Virus record (IMG/VR): IMGVR_UViG_3300030101_000509
Span: 1 to 20,933 of that record
Length of the DNA stretch: 20,933 bases
Origin: a virus
Reading direction: 5' to 3' (one strand)
The position numbers and the translations under genes are program-made. Positions 1,269 through 8,709 of the stretch are shown piece after piece; within the stretch, counting starts at the first letter, position 1, and every line of letters starts with the position of its first letter. Below the pieces are notes generated by a model. It saw nothing but the letters and a program-made list of their open reading frames with translations, did not search any database and had not been told where the DNA came from.

Positions 1269-1680
1269 TAAGCCGAAGGTTCCTCGTGTAACGCCGTTTG
1301 CCACACGGGGGATAACGAAGCGGCTGCGTGGTTCTAAGATAATTTATGAGCAGCGTGATGAGTTAGCGTTGGATTTGCTGGGTTTGTATTCTGCGAAGGT
1401 GACGGATGTTGTGGATATTGTTCATCGTGAGGATGGTTCTACGAGTGTGGACTTGAAGGATGTGGGGGATATTCCTGAGAATGCGTTGAGGGCTATTCGA
1501 AAGATTAAGGTGACCCCTACCCGGCATGGTGAGCAAGTTGAGGTTGAGATGATAGACAAGGTTAGGATAGGTCAGATGCTGGCGAAGTCGGCTGGGTTAC
1601 TGGATAATGAGAAGGAGATTGATAAGCCTGGTGTGGTGAGCATTGAGATGGTTATGCCGAAGGATGATGGTGATGAGTGA
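1252..1680 (+). CDS. terS: Terminase small subunit
   Basis: This gene encodes 142 residues from ATG 1252. The frame is open further upstream (ATG 1162), but those 30 residues would run under the preceding gene and look unlike protein, so 1252 is preferred; it has GGAAAAG about 5-8 bases upstream. The C-terminal half carries the signature of phage terminase small subunits: IRKIKVTPTRHG, then VEVEMIDKVRIGQMLAKSAGLL, an ending shared with Terminase_2-type proteins. The N-terminal region (DELALDLLGLYSAKVTDVVDIV) would be the helical DNA-recognition part. The protein selects viral DNA and regulates the large subunit. It overlaps terL by 8 bases, indicating translational coupling. Confidence 0.82.
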   Translation: MKSPSSKPKVPRVTPFATRGITKRLRGSKIIYEQRDELALDLLGLYSAKVTDVVDIVHREDGSTSVDLKDVGDIPENALRAIRKIKVTPTRHGEQVEVEMIDKVRIGQMLAKSAGLLDNEKEIDKPGVVSIEMVMPKDDGDE

Positions 1681-3199
1681 GCAACTAAGCAACATGAAGT
1701 TGGACTTTTCTTCGTCGCCTACGATAGCGAAGTTTTTTAAGAGCAAGGGTTTTGTTCGTGGGATTATGGGGCCTGTGGGTAGTGGTAAGTCTTACGCTTG
1801 CTGTGCGGAGATATGGCGTCGTGCTATTCAGCAGAAGCCTAGTCCTAGGGATGGGATTAAGTACACGAGGTTTGCGATTGTTCGTAATACCAACCCGATG
1901 TTGAGGACGACGACGTTGAAGACTTGGTTGGAGTTAATGCCTGAACACGTTTGGGGTCCGGTGAAGTATTCGCCGCCTATTGTTCATCATATCAAGTTAC
2001 CGCCCCGTGATGGTGCGGCTGGCATTGATTGTGAGGTTATATTCTTAGCTTTGGACGACCCCAAGGATGTACGGAAGCTGTTATCTTTGGAGTTGACGGG
2101 AGCGTGGGTGAATGAAGCTAGGGAGTTGCCTAAAGCGGTTATTGATGGATTGACGCATAGGGTTGGACGTTTTCCTACCAGGGCTGACGGCGGACCTACT
2201 TGGCACGGAGTTATTATGGACTCTAACCCAATGGACGACGACCATTACTGGTATCGTTTGGCTGAGAAAGAAAAACCTAGGGGCAAGTATGCTTGGGATT
2301 TTTTTAAGCAGCCCGGTGGTGTGTTAGAGGTTAGCATTGATGAATTGCCTGACCAAATGCCGGAAGCCCAAGGGTTTATTCATCAGGCGGGTCGCTGGTG
2401 GAAGACGAACCCCAAGGCTGAGAACGTAAAAAACCTACCTACGGGATACTACGAGCAGCTTCTGGGCGGTAAAAACCTTGATTGGATACAATGCTACGCT
2501 CAAGGCAAATACACGTTTGTTCAGGAAGGTAGACCCGTTTGGCCTGAGTACAATGATAGTTTGATGGCGGCTGACTTGGAGCCTGACCCGGAGTTGCCTG
2601 TTCATGTAGGATTGGACTTTGGTTTAACCCCGGCGGCTATCTTTGCCCAGAAAATGCGTAATGGCCGATGGCACGTTCTGCATGAGCTTGTCACGTTTGA
2701 CATGGGACTAAACAGGTTTGCTGAGATGCTCAAGAGCGAGTTGGAGTCCAGGTTTCCTAGATACGAAACTCTGATATGGGGTGACCCGGCGGGTATGCAG
2801 CGCGACCAGATATTTGAGACTACGGCGTTTGACCATCTTAAAACTCTGGGGTTGTTGGCAAAACCTACGGCTACGAACGAGTTTAGAACCCGGCGTGAAG
2901 CCTTGGCGATTCCGATGGGTAGGCTCATAGATAGCAAGCCCGGTTTTTTAATCAGTCGTAAGTGCAATCGGTTACGCAAGGCTTTGGCTGGTGGGTATCA
3001 CTTCAAGCGTGTAGCAATTGGAGCCGGGCAAGAACGGTTTAGAGATACGCCTAACAAGAACGAACATTCACACGTTGGCGATGCGGCGGGGTATTGCTTG
3101 CTAGGTTCTGAGCATAGAATTATGACCAAGGCCCCTACTCGTGGTCGTGTAGCGACGACACAAGCTAAAGTTTTAAGCTTTGATGTATTCGCTAACTGA
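1673..3199 (+). CDS. terL: Terminase large subunit (packaging ATPase/nuclease)
   Basis: This gene encodes 508 residues from ATG 1673. In-frame ATGs at 1643, 1664 and 1667 would overlap terS more deeply; 1673 gives the usual short overlap. Walker A is GPVGSGKS at residues 33-40. The Walker B/catalytic Glu region is LTGAWVNEAR at about 141-150. The RuvC-like nuclease domain has its acidic residues in GLDFG (Asp315), WGDPAG (Asp371) and HSHVGDA (Asp470). All key motifs are intact and the length is normal for the family. The enzyme docks on the portal, pumps DNA into the procapsid with ATP, and cuts concatemers. It sits directly after terS and before the GNAT-like gene, upstream of the portal, unlike T7 where the terminase is the last late gene. 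Confidence 0.95.
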   Translation: MSEQLSNMKLDFSSSPTIAKFFKSKGFVRGIMGPVGSGKSYACCAEIWRRAIQQKPSPRDGIKYTRFAIVRNTNPMLRTTTLKTWLELMPEHVWGPVKYSPPIVHHIKLPPRDGAAGIDCEVIFLALDDPKDVRKLLSLELTGAWVNEARELPKAVIDGLTHRVGRFPTRADGGPTWHGVIMDSNPMDDDHYWYRLAEKEKPRGKYAWDFFKQPGGVLEVSIDELPDQMPEAQGFIHQAGRWWKTNPKAENVKNLPTGYYEQLLGGKNLDWIQCYAQGKYTFVQEGRPVWPEYNDSLMAADLEPDPELPVHVGLDFGLTPAAIFAQKMRNGRWHVLHELVTFDMGLNRFAEMLKSELESRFPRYETLIWGDPAGMQRDQIFETTAFDHLKTLGLLAKPTATNEFRTRREALAIPMGRLIDSKPGFLISRKCNRLRKALAGGYHFKRVAIGAGQERFRDTPNKNEHSHVGDAAGYCLLGSEHRIMTKAPTRGRVATTQAKVLSFDVFAN

Positions 3200-4490: not shown

Positions 4491-4624
4491 AAAAGCCATT
4501 TGATAAAAAAGCAATGAATAAAATGGTTGGCAAGAAAGCTGATAAGATTATGAAAGAAGGTAAAGCCAAAAATAAAAAACAGGCTTTTGCCATAGCTTAC
4601 GCGACGCTTGGAAAAAAATCATAA
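4487..4624 (+). CDS. 45-residue Lys-rich phage protein
   Basis: ATG 4487 overlaps the previous stop (ATGA), with GAGGTAGG just upstream. The product is 45 residues with 15 Lys. The end, KKQAFAIAYATLGKK, is a short amphipathic helix of the kind that closes many tiny phage proteins (AFAIA / AIAIA motif). The function is unknown. It ends one base before the portal ATG, so it is part of the same transcript and may help couple portal translation. Confidence 0.65.
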   Translation: MKKPFDKKAMNKMVGKKADKIMKEGKAKNKKQAFAIAYATLGKKS

Positions 4625-4625
4625 A

Positions 4626-6173
4626 ATGTTAGACGTTAAAGAAATAAAGAAACGCTACAAGAAAGCCGCAACTCACAAGGAGCAATGGCGGTCTATCTAT
4701 GAGGAAGCCTACGAGTATGCGCTTCCTATGCGTAATCTTTACGACGGTTACTATGAGGGTAATGTTCCCGGTCAAAATAAAATGAAACGAGTGTTTGACA
4801 GTACAGCGCAACACTCAACGGCCCGGTTTGCTAATCGGATACAATCCTCCCTGTTCCCCCCACAGAGACCGTGGTGTAGATTAGAGCCGGGCCTAGAAAT
4901 ACCTGACGAGCAAAAAATAGAAGCCCAACAAGCATTAGATTTTTATTCTGAAAAAATGTTTGGCATCATGGCTCAGTCTGGTTTTGACCTGGCTATGGGG
5001 GAGTTTTTGCTAGACCTAGCTATTGGCACAGCGGTCATGCTTATTCAGCCTGGTGATGAGTTAACTCCCATACGTTATACGGCTGTTCCTAGTTATCATA
5101 TATCTTTTGAGGAAGGGCCAAACGGTCAAGTTGATACGGTATATCGAAAGTTCAAACGACCCTTCAATGTTATTCAGAGAGAATTTCCTGACGCAGAAAT
5201 TCCTGACCATATCATAAAAAAATATGAAGACGATGTAACAGAACCTCTTGAAATGATTGAGGCAACCTACACAATAGATAATCAAATTCATTATTGTATT
5301 ATTACAGCAGAGGAAGATTTTAAACTTTTACATAGAAAGCTAAAGTCTTTCCCTTGGGTTATCTCCAGGTACATGAAAGCTAGTAACGAGAGGTATGGTC
5401 GTGGCCCCGTGCTATACGCCCTACCTGACATTAAGACACTCAATAAAGTTGTTGAATTAACTTTAAAAAACGCCAGCATAAGTATTGGTGGCGTGTTTAC
5501 TGCGGTTGACGATGGCGTATTAAATCCACAAACTATCAGCATTGTTCCCGGCGCAGTAATAGGCGTTAGCTCAAACGGGGGTCCTCGCGGTCCATCTCTG
5601 CAACCTTTACCCCGTTCGGGCGACGCCAACCTAACACAAATCGTTAGCAATGACTTGCGTATAAACATTAAGAAAACATTGCTAGACGAAAGCTTGCCGC
5701 CCGACAATATGAGCGCCAGAAGTGCGACTGAGATTGTTGAACGTATGAAAGAACTATCGCAGAATTTGGGGTCAGCGTTCGGGCGGCTCATCAGCGAGAC
5801 AATGTTTCCAATCGTAAGACGTACCCTTGAGCTTATGGATGAAATGGGTGAGATAGAGCTTCCGTTAAAAATCAACGGACTTCAGGTCAAGGTCGTGCCA
5901 GTATCACCTTTGGCTATGGCTAACAATGCTGAGAAACTAAACGAGGTTATGCAGTTTATGCAGATATCTCAGATGATGGGTCCACAGGGTCAGACCTTAA
6001 TTAGAATGGATGCCGTGGGTGATTACATAGCTGACCAGCTAGGTATTCCGGCAAAACTTAGAACGACGCCACAAGAACGACAACAGATGCAAGAACAAAT
6101 GATGCAGATGGCACAGATGGCGGCACAGCAACAAGGCGTGTTACCGCCTGAAGGTGAGGAGCAAATGCAATGA
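4626..6173 (+). CDS. Portal protein (podovirus head-to-tail connector)
   Basis: This gene encodes 515 residues from ATG 4626. The frame continues upstream to a TTG at 4608, but ATG directly after the previous gene is preferred, although its Shine-Dalgarno match (TTGGA) is weak. The sequence is typical of the T7 gp8-like connector family (Head-tail_con): an N-terminal helix with YEEAYEYALP at residues 25-34, FDSTAQHSTARFANRIQS at about 57-74 followed by LFPP, and a helical C-terminus with a Gln/Met-rich tail (about 480-515). The portal forms the dodecameric ring at one capsid vertex that takes DNA in with TerL and later binds the tail. It overlaps the next gene by 4 bases. Size matches T7 gp8 (about 536). 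Confidence 0.93.
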   Translation: MLDVKEIKKRYKKAATHKEQWRSIYEEAYEYALPMRNLYDGYYEGNVPGQNKMKRVFDSTAQHSTARFANRIQSSLFPPQRPWCRLEPGLEIPDEQKIEAQQALDFYSEKMFGIMAQSGFDLAMGEFLLDLAIGTAVMLIQPGDELTPIRYTAVPSYHISFEEGPNGQVDTVYRKFKRPFNVIQREFPDAEIPDHIIKKYEDDVTEPLEMIEATYTIDNQIHYCIITAEEDFKLLHRKLKSFPWVISRYMKASNERYGRGPVLYALPDIKTLNKVVELTLKNASISIGGVFTAVDDGVLNPQTISIVPGAVIGVSSNGGPRGPSLQPLPRSGDANLTQIVSNDLRINIKKTLLDESLPPDNMSARSATEIVERMKELSQNLGSAFGRLISETMFPIVRRTLELMDEMGEIELPLKINGLQVKVVPVSPLAMANNAEKLNEVMQFMQISQMMGPQGQTLIRMDAVGDYIADQLGIPAKLRTTPQERQQMQEQMMQMAQMAAQQQGVLPPEGEEQMQ

Positions 6174-6469
6174 GTCAATCAGAGCGCATTCGCAGCATAA
6201 ACTCACCGGGTTGGGATGGTGTAGACTCAAGTGTTACACACTTAGAACTGCCCAACACATCGACACAAAGAGATTTAGATATTCAGTTCAAACGATGTTT
6301 TGATACTGAAGCCGGGCAAAAGGTATTAGAAAACTTACGGGCAATAACTATTGAACAACCCGCATGGATACCCGGCGCAGACCCTTCTTTTGGATACGCA
6401 CGGGAAGGGCAGAATAGTTTAGTGCGTGAAATAGAACAGAGGATAAAACGAGCAAATGAGCGAGAGTGA
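6170..6469 (+). CDS. Bbp19-like small phage protein
   Basis: This gene encodes 99 residues and starts in an ATGA overlap with the portal. The core FKRCFDTEAGQKVLENLRA, a short Pro-containing stretch, then AREGQNSLVREIEQRI matches the small conserved family represented by Bordetella phage Bbp19, typically found next to portal and scaffold genes. The function is unknown; location suggests a head-assembly factor. The N-terminal 35 residues are polar and probably flexible. It overlaps the scaffold gene by 14 bases. Confidence 0.7.
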   Translation: MSQSERIRSINSPGWDGVDSSVTHLELPNTSTQRDLDIQFKRCFDTEAGQKVLENLRAITIEQPAWIPGADPSFGYAREGQNSLVREIEQRIKRANERE

Positions 6470-7268
6470 CAACCAAGAAGCCCAGGGAACAACCGAAGAA
6501 GTTGCGGCTCCTGATGGCTTGATGGCCGCTACAGCTTTAGAAGAAGACAAGGCCGTAGAAGAAGGTGAAACTATTGAGCATCGTGCAGATGCCGAAGTAG
6601 AAGACCAGCCCACAGAAGAAGAAACGTTTGAGCGTCCTGAGTTCATACCAGCAAAGTTTTGGGATGAAAAAGAAGGGCCAGACCTAGAAAAGATGATGAA
6701 GTCTTATGACGAGTTAGAAAAAAAGTTTTCACAAGGTCAGCACAAAGCACCAAAAGAATATAACACCGAAGTTTTAACAGAGGCTGGATATGAAGCTGAT
6801 GACCCGCTTGTGTCTACTTATTTAGATTGGGCGCAAAAATATGGCGTCAATCAAGCAGCATTTGATGAACTAGCTGGCTCTATTACAAGCATGGCGGGTG
6901 AAGACATGGCGGCTGTAGAGTTAGACCTACAAAGGGAACGTGAGGCTCTTGGTCCTAATGCTGATGAAATATTGAAATCAAATATTAACTGGGCTGATTC
7001 CTTACAGCGTAAAGGTGTTATTTCTGAGGAAGAACGTGCTGAGTTAAACATTTGGGGCGGCTCTGCTATTGGTCAGCGTCTTATGCAAAAGGTGCGGTCA
7101 ATGACAGGTGATATGTCGAAAATTCCAATAGCGGATGTAGCGGAAGCTGGAGCAAGTGAAGATGATTTCAAACGTTCTATGCAGAGCAAAATGGCAGACC
7201 CACGCTACGGAAATGATATGGCATATACTCGCGGAGTAGAAAGGGAATTTGAGCAAAGATACGGATAA
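6456..7268 (+). CDS. Capsid assembly scaffolding protein
   Basis: This gene encodes 270 residues. It has a strongly acidic, low-complexity N-terminus (about residues 1-60), then RPEFIPAKFWDEKEGPDLEKM and a long helical middle rich in Glu, Lys and Gln. It ends with a conserved DPRYGNDMAYTRGVEREF segment. This organisation and its place between portal and major capsid protein match T7 gp9-like scaffold proteins, which guide shell assembly and leave before maturation. The basic/aromatic C-terminus is where such scaffolds usually touch the coat protein. The gene is followed within 30 bases by a strong terminator, so it closes this transcription unit. Confidence 0.85.
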   Translation: MSESDNQEAQGTTEEVAAPDGLMAATALEEDKAVEEGETIEHRADAEVEDQPTEEETFERPEFIPAKFWDEKEGPDLEKMMKSYDELEKKFSQGQHKAPKEYNTEVLTEAGYEADDPLVSTYLDWAQKYGVNQAAFDELAGSITSMAGEDMAAVELDLQREREALGPNADEILKSNINWADSLQRKGVISEEERAELNIWGGSAIGQRLMQKVRSMTGDMSKIPIADVAEAGASEDDFKRSMQSKMADPRYGNDMAYTRGVEREFEQRYG

Positions 7269-7296
7269 TGCCTGTGGCGTTATACTTCGCCTAACT

Positions 7297-7331
7297 GCCC
7301 CCGTTTTGTCCTTTTTACGGGGGCTTTTTTT
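7297..7331 (+). terminator. Intrinsic terminator after the scaffold gene
   Basis: A perfect 8-bp stem, GCCCCCGT (7297-7304) with ACGGGGGC (7317-7324), encloses a 12-base T-rich loop and is followed by seven T (7325-7331). This is a textbook rho-independent terminator for + strand transcription. It separates the packaging/portal/scaffold unit from the capsid unit. Confidence 0.9.
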
Positions 7332-7358
7332 GTACAAACTCTAAATGTAGGGTATAAA
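7330..7358 (+). promoter_or_regulatory. Candidate sigma70-type promoter for the capsid unit
   Basis: TTGTAC (7330-7335) and TATAAA (7353-7358) are 17 bases apart. The -10 matches 5 of 6 consensus bases, the -35 only 3 of 6, and the -35 lies in the palindrome TTTGTACAAA (7329-7338). Placement directly after a terminator and before the capsid gene, which needs very high expression, supports it. Predicted transcription starts around 7364-7366. Confidence 0.5.
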
Positions 7359-7363
7359 GTATT

Positions 7364-7381
7364 TACAAGCTACAGCTTGTA
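7364..7381. promoter_or_regulatory. Fourth copy of the origin dyad, possible operator
   Basis: TACAAGCTACAGCTTGTA is a perfect 8-bp inverted repeat with a 2-base centre. Its inner 16 bases match the dyads inside the initiator-like gene (434-449, 467-482) at 14 of 16 positions, differing only in the centre. It covers the predicted start of transcription, a position where a bound protein would repress. It also forms a short hairpin 7 bases before eight T (7389-7396), so weak termination is a rival reading. Confidence 0.5.
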
Positions 7382-7410
7382 GTATATCTTTTTTTTCAAC
7401 AGATAACCCT

Positions 7411-7487
7411 CTGGGCCTGTTTGGCGTGTAGAAATACACCGGGCGTGGACGTATCCACGAAGCCAAAGGCCGGAACTCCCGACAACC
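7411..7487 (+). ncRNA. Structured 5' leader of the capsid mRNA (three-way junction, possible pseudoknot)
   Basis: Nested complementarity gives a compact fold. The outer stem is GGCC 7414-7417/7468-7471, a 2-base bulge, and TTTGGC 7420-7425 with GCCAAA 7462-7467. Inside are a GAAA-tetraloop hairpin (GTGTA 7426-7430/TACAC 7435-7439) and a second hairpin (CGTGGA 7444-7449/TCCACG 7454-7459, loop CGTA). The junction linker CGGG (7440-7443) can pair with CCCG (7478-7481), giving a pseudoknot. I do not recognise a known riboswitch or ribozyme core. It lies about 40-50 bases before the capsid ribosome site. It could be a cis-regulator, an mRNA stabiliser or a processing element. Confidence 0.6.
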
Positions 7488-7534
7488 TATAACGGCGACA
7501 AATTTAACTGGTTCAATAATAGGAGCTATAAATT

Positions 7535-8383
7535 ATGTCTACGAACCTTAGTCCGGCGTTCGTTCAGCTATTTGAAGCGGAAGTACATCAAGCCTATCAA
7601 GGTGCTGCTGTTCTTCGTGGTGCTGCACGGACCCGAAATGGTGTGACGGGAGACACCGTAAAATTCCCGAAAGTTGGTAAAGGTACTGCGTCGGTTCGCG
7701 TTCCACAAACTGACGTAACTCCAATCAATGCAGCTTTTTCACAGGTTTCAATAAGTATGCAAGACTTTGTTGCTGCTGAATATTCTGATATATTTAATCA
7801 GCAAAAAGTTAACTTCGATGAGCGTCAAGAGTTAGCGCAAGTCGTGGGTAATGCTATTGGACGTCGTGAAGACCAAATCATTATTGATGCACTTAATGCC
7901 GCTTCGGCGGGTTCTACAGTTGCTAAAACTGTGGTGACCTCTGGTTCAGCTACAGCATCTAACTTAAATGTTGGTAAAATATTAGCTGCGAAAAAAGCTT
8001 TGGATGCGAAAAACGTGCCCCCAACTGACCGTCACTTTGTAATCCATGCTAATAACCTAGCTGGTTTGCTCGGTGATGAACGTGCGATTTCGAGTGACTT
8101 TCAGACTGTACAAGCATTAGTAAGCGGAAGCGTGAACTCAATGCTAGGCTTTCAGTTCCACATTGTAGGTGACCGAGATGAAGGTGGTCTACCATTGGCT
8201 ACTGCTGATAGAACTTGTTTTGCTTTCCATCGTTCAGCAATCGGTGTTGGTGTTGGTATCGCTCCAAAAACAGAAATCAACTACATCCCTGAGAAAACGT
8301 CTTTTCTAGTAACTGCGATGCTCTCAATGGGCAGTGGCGTTATAGATGTTGACGGCCTCGTTGATGTTGTTTGTGAAGAATAA
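7535..8383 (+). CDS. Major capsid protein
   Basis: This gene encodes 282 residues, with AGGAG at 7521-7525 ahead of ATG 7535. The sequence has the pattern of phage coat proteins of HK97-fold type: an N-terminal arm (FVQLFEAEVHQAYQG), TGDTVKFPKVGKGTA in the E-loop region, FVAAEYSDIFNQQKVNFDER in the spine, then GNAIGRREDQIIIDAL, and a C-terminal domain with FQFHIVGDRDEGG and PEKTSFLVTAMLSMG. It directly follows the scaffold gene and precedes a small decoration-like gene, the normal order. The HK97 fold is inferred from family knowledge. At 282 residues it is shorter than T7 gp10A (345). Expression is probably governed by its own promoter and leader RNA. Confidence 0.9.
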   Translation: MSTNLSPAFVQLFEAEVHQAYQGAAVLRGAARTRNGVTGDTVKFPKVGKGTASVRVPQTDVTPINAAFSQVSISMQDFVAAEYSDIFNQQKVNFDERQELAQVVGNAIGRREDQIIIDALNAASAGSTVAKTVVTSGSATASNLNVGKILAAKKALDAKNVPPTDRHFVIHANNLAGLLGDERAISSDFQTVQALVSGSVNSMLGFQFHIVGDRDEGGLPLATADRTCFAFHRSAIGVGVGIAPKTEINYIPEKTSFLVTAMLSMGSGVIDVDGLVDVVCEE

Positions 8384-8395
8384 GGAGAGATAATC

Positions 8396-8680
8396 ATGGC
8401 ATTTGCAGCAACTGGTATGTCCTCATTAGGTGGTCAAAGCATGAAGGGTACGGTTCCCGCACTCTACTGCTACACCACTACGGACGCACATACAGTCGTG
8501 GATGGCTCTGGCTATTTCAACGACTTGTCAGACACTCTGGCCGTTGGCGATATGATTATCGTTCATGGCTCTACGGGTGGTACACGAACAATTACTATGC
8601 ACGTTGTAGTCAGCAATGCCTCTGGCGTTGTTGATATGTCAGACGGCACAGTAATCGCTGTGGTAACTGACTCAGACTAA
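8396..8680 (+). CDS. Probable capsid decoration or minor structural protein
   Basis: This gene encodes 94 residues, with AAGGAGAG at 8383-8390 before ATG 8396. It is beta-rich, with SGYFNDLSDTLAVGDMIIVHG in the middle (the GYFN...L..GD.I pattern is common in small proteins after phage capsid genes) and ending in Val-rich strands (VIAVVTDSD). There is no Cys pair or enzyme motif. Position directly after the capsid gene suggests a head decoration protein, but that is inference. It is in the same frame as the capsid gene, separated by one TAA and 12 bases. Confidence 0.75.
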   Translation: MAFAATGMSSLGGQSMKGTVPALYCYTTTDAHTVVDGSGYFNDLSDTLAVGDMIIVHGSTGGTRTITMHVVVSNASGVVDMSDGTVIAVVTDSD

Positions 8681-8686
8681 TACTTT

Positions 8687-8709
8687 GGGGGCGGCAACGC
8701 CCCCTTACT
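8687..8709 (+). terminator. G/C hairpin after the decoration gene, weak terminator
   Basis: GGGGGCG (8687-8693) pairs with CGCCCCC (8698-8704) around a GCAA tetraloop. Only TTACTT follows, so termination is probably partial. It could set a step down in expression between capsid and tail genes, or protect the capsid mRNA 3' end. Confidence 0.55.

Follow-up and report, generated by a model that had tools for sequence, protein, structure and literature searches.

Two similar small hairpins acting as a pair in a 5′ UTR characterize the guanidine-II (mini-ykkC) riboswitch, and the T7 gene 10 leader with its RNase III site and the ompA 5′ stem illustrate how 5′ structure can raise the output of an abundant protein. 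Structured RNAs have also been described in phages. The manA and wcaG motifs of marine cyanophages were found by comparative analysis (PMC2864571), and putL of phage HK022 is a two-stem-loop RNA located directly after a phage promoter (PMC9378689). The locus analysed here belongs to a 20,933-base virus record, hereafter the window, which carries a podophage-like late region. Like HK022 put, it presents two stem-loops downstream of a promoter, with a middle domain that is extra here; it also combines the conserved structure and compensatory changes of a cis-regulatory leader RNA with a constant 5′ UTR position before members of a single gene family, that of the major capsid protein (MCP).

The capsid transcription unit

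The window encodes a replication-initiator-like protein (70-843; PHROG 270/428/391 matches), a terminase (1643-3199), a portal or connector (4608-6173), a scaffold (6456-7268) and, on the plus strand, the MCP (7535-8383; Pfam PF19821, E 4e-67; PHROG 3437), which is preceded by the Shine-Dalgarno (SD) sequence AGGAG (7521-7525, plus strand) and followed by a 94-aa gene (8396-8680) and tail genes. Between scaffold and MCP genes lie, all on the plus strand, an intrinsic terminator ending the scaffold operon (7297-7331; stem GCCCCCGT/ACGGGGGC followed by seven T), a sigma70-like promoter for the capsid transcript identified by promoter scan (TTTACA-17-TATCTT, 7362-7390), the pattern of which recurs in relatives, and the structured RNA. 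A GC-rich hairpin whose U tract is weak (8687-8704, plus strand) stands 3′ of the 94-aa gene, about 300 nt past the MCP stop, and is kept in most relatives examined; it is a candidate leaky terminator or 3′ stabiliser. Given the terminator upstream and this conserved hairpin downstream, the capsid unit appears to be bounded on both sides.

We note that the promoter contains a palindrome, ACAAGCTACAGCTTGT (7365-7380; strand not applicable), which is the same as the iterons at 434-506. The palindrome ACAAGCNNNAGCTTGT occurs at 434-449, 467-482 and 491-506 within the replication-initiator-like gene and once in the capsid promoter, the overall count being nine matches against 0.95 expected. In another record (G005), the promoter copy is likewise identical to clustered copies elsewhere in that record. 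The replication initiator may also regulate late capsid transcription.

The conserved RNA spans approximately 7398-7497, 37 nt upstream of the MCP start codon, with its first base at the predicted promoter +1; the extent of 7411-7487 given in a preliminary description of this DNA was too short. For 25 of 33 leaders, an automatic scan placed a TTTACA-17/18-hexamer promoter ending 5-8 nt before the first helix, P1; in the others it picked different sites, several of which fit a shifted box by eye. This spacing suggests that the RNA begins at the predicted +1 or directly beside it.

Fold, homologues and distribution of the leader

The leader opens with hairpin P1/P1a (7398-7421, plus strand), in which P1 (7398-7402/7417-7421) is separated from P1a (7407-7409/7413-7415) by the pair A7403.C7416 and the bulge UAA (7404-7406). 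The middle domain (7422-7465, plus strand), defined by covariation, is closed by P2 (7422-7425/7462-7465) and forms a three-way junction with P3 (7426-7430/7435-7439; GAAA loop), a linker starting with CG (7440-7441), and P4 (7444-7448/7455-7459; CG in the loop). The 3′ hairpin P6/P5 (7467-7488, plus strand) comprises P6 (7467-7469/7486-7488), C7470.A7482, the bulge CAA (7483-7485) and P5 (7471-7473/7479-7481), and is followed by a conserved GGCG (7494-7497, plus strand). A candidate alternative pairing, between this tail and the GCC on the 3′ side of P2, shows covariation in L041 and L044 but fails in L045, L047 and L154.

MCP relatives in IMG/VR carry a clearly homologous leader. A covariance model built from 18 close leaders (R1) retrieved the element from loci with far-diverged leaders at E values of 1e-13 to 1e-7 and weaker; two of its weak matches (L087:7291 and L083:8182, E about 0.3) were put aside as probable chance. 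A second model (R2) matched loci outside its training set at 1e-8 or better (L105, L151, L154, L196, L200, L203, L205, L209) and, less strongly, L197 (0.017) and L107 (0.043). In an alignment of 39 distinct sequences that was fitted to the model, a procedure that favours structure, 94.1% of cells pair against 68.8% in shuffles, and both partners vary in 30 of 30 consensus pairs. Covariation scores 0.614, compared with 0.192 for shuffles (0/500) and 0.05-0.10 for slid partners. Initial MAFFT alignments, which are structure-free, already show most of the same helices. Folding of the single sequence (106 nt) yields -32.5 kcal/mol (z -1.9), with 8 of 200 shuffles equally stable; as this signal is only modest, the case for structure is a comparative one.

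The preliminary description had proposed an unassigned structured RNA upstream of the MCP gene, together with a covariance-model search, a check for covarying pairs and an Rfam scan. That proposal is borne out by the very strong covariation, by the fixed place before the MCP and by the Rfam scan, in which the window and 36 related loci matched none of the 4227 families of Rfam 15 at gathering scores. Compensatory changes in the homologues likewise uphold its three-way junction with a GAAA-capped hairpin (P3, GUGUA-GAAA-UACAC) and a second hairpin (P4, CGUGG..CCACG). Its outer stem of 4+6 bp survives in part. The portion UUUGGC/GCCAAA, the inner four pairs of which are P2, shows compensatory changes, whereas the outer GGCC/GGCC pairing, although also predicted by single-sequence folding, is formed in 81.4% of cells against 81.5% in shuffles and shows no excess covariation. 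The CGGG/CCCG pseudoknot fares no better (72.2% against 70.8%). The bases of these two unsupported elements belong largely to the flanking hairpins that the earlier fold had missed, and which are the best-conserved part of the leader: the first GGCC lies on the 3′ side of P1, and the second GGCC and the CCCG lie in P6/P5.

A DNA pattern scan independent of the capsid gene found the element in 47 contigs (13 in an earlier 21-mer scan). Of 59 matches tested, 57 precede an MCP start by 88-110 nt, and the remaining two are near contig ends. Scans of whole records returned one element each, save for a 33.9-kb record with a copy at either end, a pattern that fits a circular genome opened at this site. 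Several IMG/VR contigs (L007, L015, L018, L025, L033, L046) start 90-190 nt upstream of the MCP gene, at or within the element, and assembly forks at a conserved stretch are a possible cause. A Blast search with the element as query found no match in 50,697 phage records, and isolates were therefore reached only via their MCP. Cultured members of the group include MEP301, which grows on Methylophilales, Vibrio phage CKB-S2 and Pelagibacter phage Baldr.

The twin bulges

P1/P1a and P6/P5 are two permutations of a single motif. Its A strand reads, 5′ to 3′, helix X, A-Y-A-A and helix Y, opposite Y′, one C and X′; the loop caps Y in the first hairpin and X in the second. Each bulge accordingly consists of a C facing the four nucleotides A-Y-A-A, that is, an A.C or G.U pair plus a three-nucleotide YAA. 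In bulge 1, all 48 aligned sequences have AYAA facing a C. The first letter of bulge 2 is A with C in 41 of the 48 and G with U in the other 7, never mixed, an exchange that fits expectation for an A.C wobble pair. The motif is rare elsewhere than in MCP leaders (0.09 and 0.19 per kb for types 1 and 2, respectively, in 608 kb), and two of the five ordered pairs present in those 608 kb are MCP leaders, those of the window and of Vibrio phage CKB-S2. The middle domain is dispensable, being absent from the CKB-S2 leader, which has the two hairpins only, and replaced by one short hairpin in L050, L058 and L059. The Baldr leader has two type-2 hairpins, and that of HTVC010P has a type-1 hairpin and a doubtful second.

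The letters of the bulges vary with lineage and resemble each other inside one leader (AYAA/AYAA, CAUA/CAUA, CCUA/CCUA). CCUA occupies both bulges of L107 (0/400 shuffles; 0/161 other windows), and CAUA both bulges of the isolate MEP301 (1/60 shuffles). MEP301-like leaders from the wider collection share the architecture, with CAUA/CAUA, CUAA/CUAA, CUCA/CUAA, CCUA/CAUA and others, and their middle hairpins covary as well. Over 24 distinct bulge-pair types gathered by hand from search outputs, the two bulges of a leader share 73 of 96 letters, where 53 would be expected (0/5000), in a permutation test that ignores phylogeny; the agreement is strong and not strict, as in CUUA/CAUA. Direct pairing of one bulge with the other was ruled out, their letters not being complementary. 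Since the letters are alike within a leader though they differ between lineages, both bulges are probably read by one partner, and the sequences suggest that they face the same one. That the letters drift by lineage yet stay alike in both sites makes a phage-encoded partner the most likely. The absence of the twin from some phages with related MCPs, namely Hodr, Vibrio phage 1.257 and several MAG contigs, counts against a shared binder; in Vibrio phage 1.257 (L097) and in L130, a plain GC hairpin stands at the same place before the MCP.

Candidate functions and known systems

The position of the element argues that it acts in cis, and the preliminary suggestion that it controls capsid translation or stability is plausible. 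Our preferred explanation, to which we attach a probability of roughly one half, is that this 5′-terminal element tunes the translation and/or stability of the capsid mRNA through a shared, probably phage-encoded binder. The leader would fold at the extreme 5′ end of the message, where the twin bulges would offer candidate binding sites for one partner and the optional three-way junction would act as a spacer; binding, together with the stable 5′-terminal stem, would set the lifetime and/or translation of the mRNA, whether by activation, protection or feedback repression, and so yield capsid protein in the appropriate excess. In a more specific and rather doubtful version, the bulges would serve as operator for one of the phage's structural proteins, the capsid or the scaffold. 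This would amount to RNA-level feedback on capsid synthesis in tailed DNA phages, with a co-evolving protein-RNA pair spread over phages, marine and other, that infect several host groups.

The best rival, unlikely as we judge it, is an RNA antiterminator of the put type, in which the nascent leader would bind RNA polymerase and carry it past the GC hairpin and later tail-operon terminators. The two stem-loops directly after the promoter recall HK022 putL (PMC9378689), the middle domain apart, and a conserved GC hairpin separates the capsid unit from the tail genes. Inspection of putL, however, revealed no AYAA/C hairpin, and the drift of bulge letters between lineages fits less well with so conserved a partner as RNA polymerase. 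Homology to put, characterised by the putL strands, G35.A9 and a triplex in stem I, was rejected on this comparison by eye with putL as located in HK022.

Quite unlikely, in our view, is a purely passive 5′ stabiliser, for which any stable 5′-terminal stem would suffice, in the manner of the ompA 5′ stem or the T7 RNase III hairpins. P1 does start at the predicted +1, and Vibrio phage 1.257 and L130, which lack the twin, have plain hairpins in the corresponding position, but the invariant YAA bulges, the exchange of A.C for G.U and the likeness of the two bulges would be left unexplained.

We regard as improbable a riboswitch in which the twin bulges are ligand pockets, recalling the hairpin pair of guanidine-II, and in which the output is release of the SD. 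Within a lineage the bulge letters are strict, and in several lineages a strand next to a bulge is complementary to the SD: one clade has UCACUCC/GGAGUGA, AUACUCC/GGAGUAU and UUACUCC/GGAGUAA, and another has CUCCCAU/AUGGGAG. The element nevertheless always accompanies one structural gene rather than metabolic genes, the bulge letters vary between lineages, the window appears to lack a conserved SD platform, and region 7250-7600 returned only chance-level Rfam matches at E 10, with no riboswitch or ribozyme among them.

Such strands are also a hint that the preferred explanation involves translation. Complementarity to the SD region reaches 7-8 nt in some lineages and is 4 nt in the window's own clade (CUCC/GGAG). 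The SD is less open than with shuffled leaders in several lineages, and it is more complementary to its own leader than to a mismatched one (5.51 and 4.70, respectively, 0/2000; 4.97 for a control upstream region), in a test that ignores relatedness. A general SD switch was rejected on the closeness of the control, this disregard of relatedness and the lack of such pairing in the window's clade; with the control scores near and the window's clade without the pairing, such a switch would be at most lineage-specific. The absence of SD pairing from L024, L046 and L063, and its minimal form in the window's clade, count against the preferred explanation. As a lineage-specific observation, in L030 (1866-2001), L026 (1866-2001) and L080 (1869-2001) the SD region shows 7-8 nt of complementarity to the strand beside one bulge, possibly a clade-specific translational switch.

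Finally, the G.U pairs, the restriction to one strand and the fixed promoter distance indicate that the element most likely acts as RNA, and a DNA-level packaging or recombination site or cruciform is highly improbable: several contigs do end nearby and one record has the element at both ends, but that record fits a circular genome broken there, and G.U pairs are numerous and, like the replacement of A.C by G.U, keep to one strand orientation, at a fixed distance from the promoter.

The paired bulges are a clear, mutable target, and the balance of capsid, scaffold and tail output is testable with the short leader and a reporter. The element represents a widespread, uncatalogued RNA class that heads the capsid gene in a large podophage group, cultured phages included; that gene is presumably one of those expressed most heavily. 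The open-access papers searched contain no description of the element. We know of no conserved bulge pair or three-way junction in the T7 gene 10 leader or the ompA 5′ stem. Guanidine-II differs in having its conserved letters in hairpin loops rather than bulges and in its association with metabolic genes, and has no Rfam match here; the manA and wcaG motifs also precede metabolic genes and are likewise unmatched. Ribosomal-protein leader RNAs, which exert autogenous control, resemble the element as structured 5′ UTRs of one abundant structural protein but belong to host genes rather than phage capsids, and no such Rfam leader matched at gathering scores. The put RNAs of HK022 (putL/putR) resemble it in their two stem-loops, about 70 nt in put, and in the location of putL directly after a phage promoter, and differ in serving early operons rather than the capsid and, by eye and for putL only, in having no twin C/AYAA bulges. 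Judged from sequence, the leader thus appears, as a class, to be new to what was searched, and as a kind it would join the phage 5′ leader RNAs already known.
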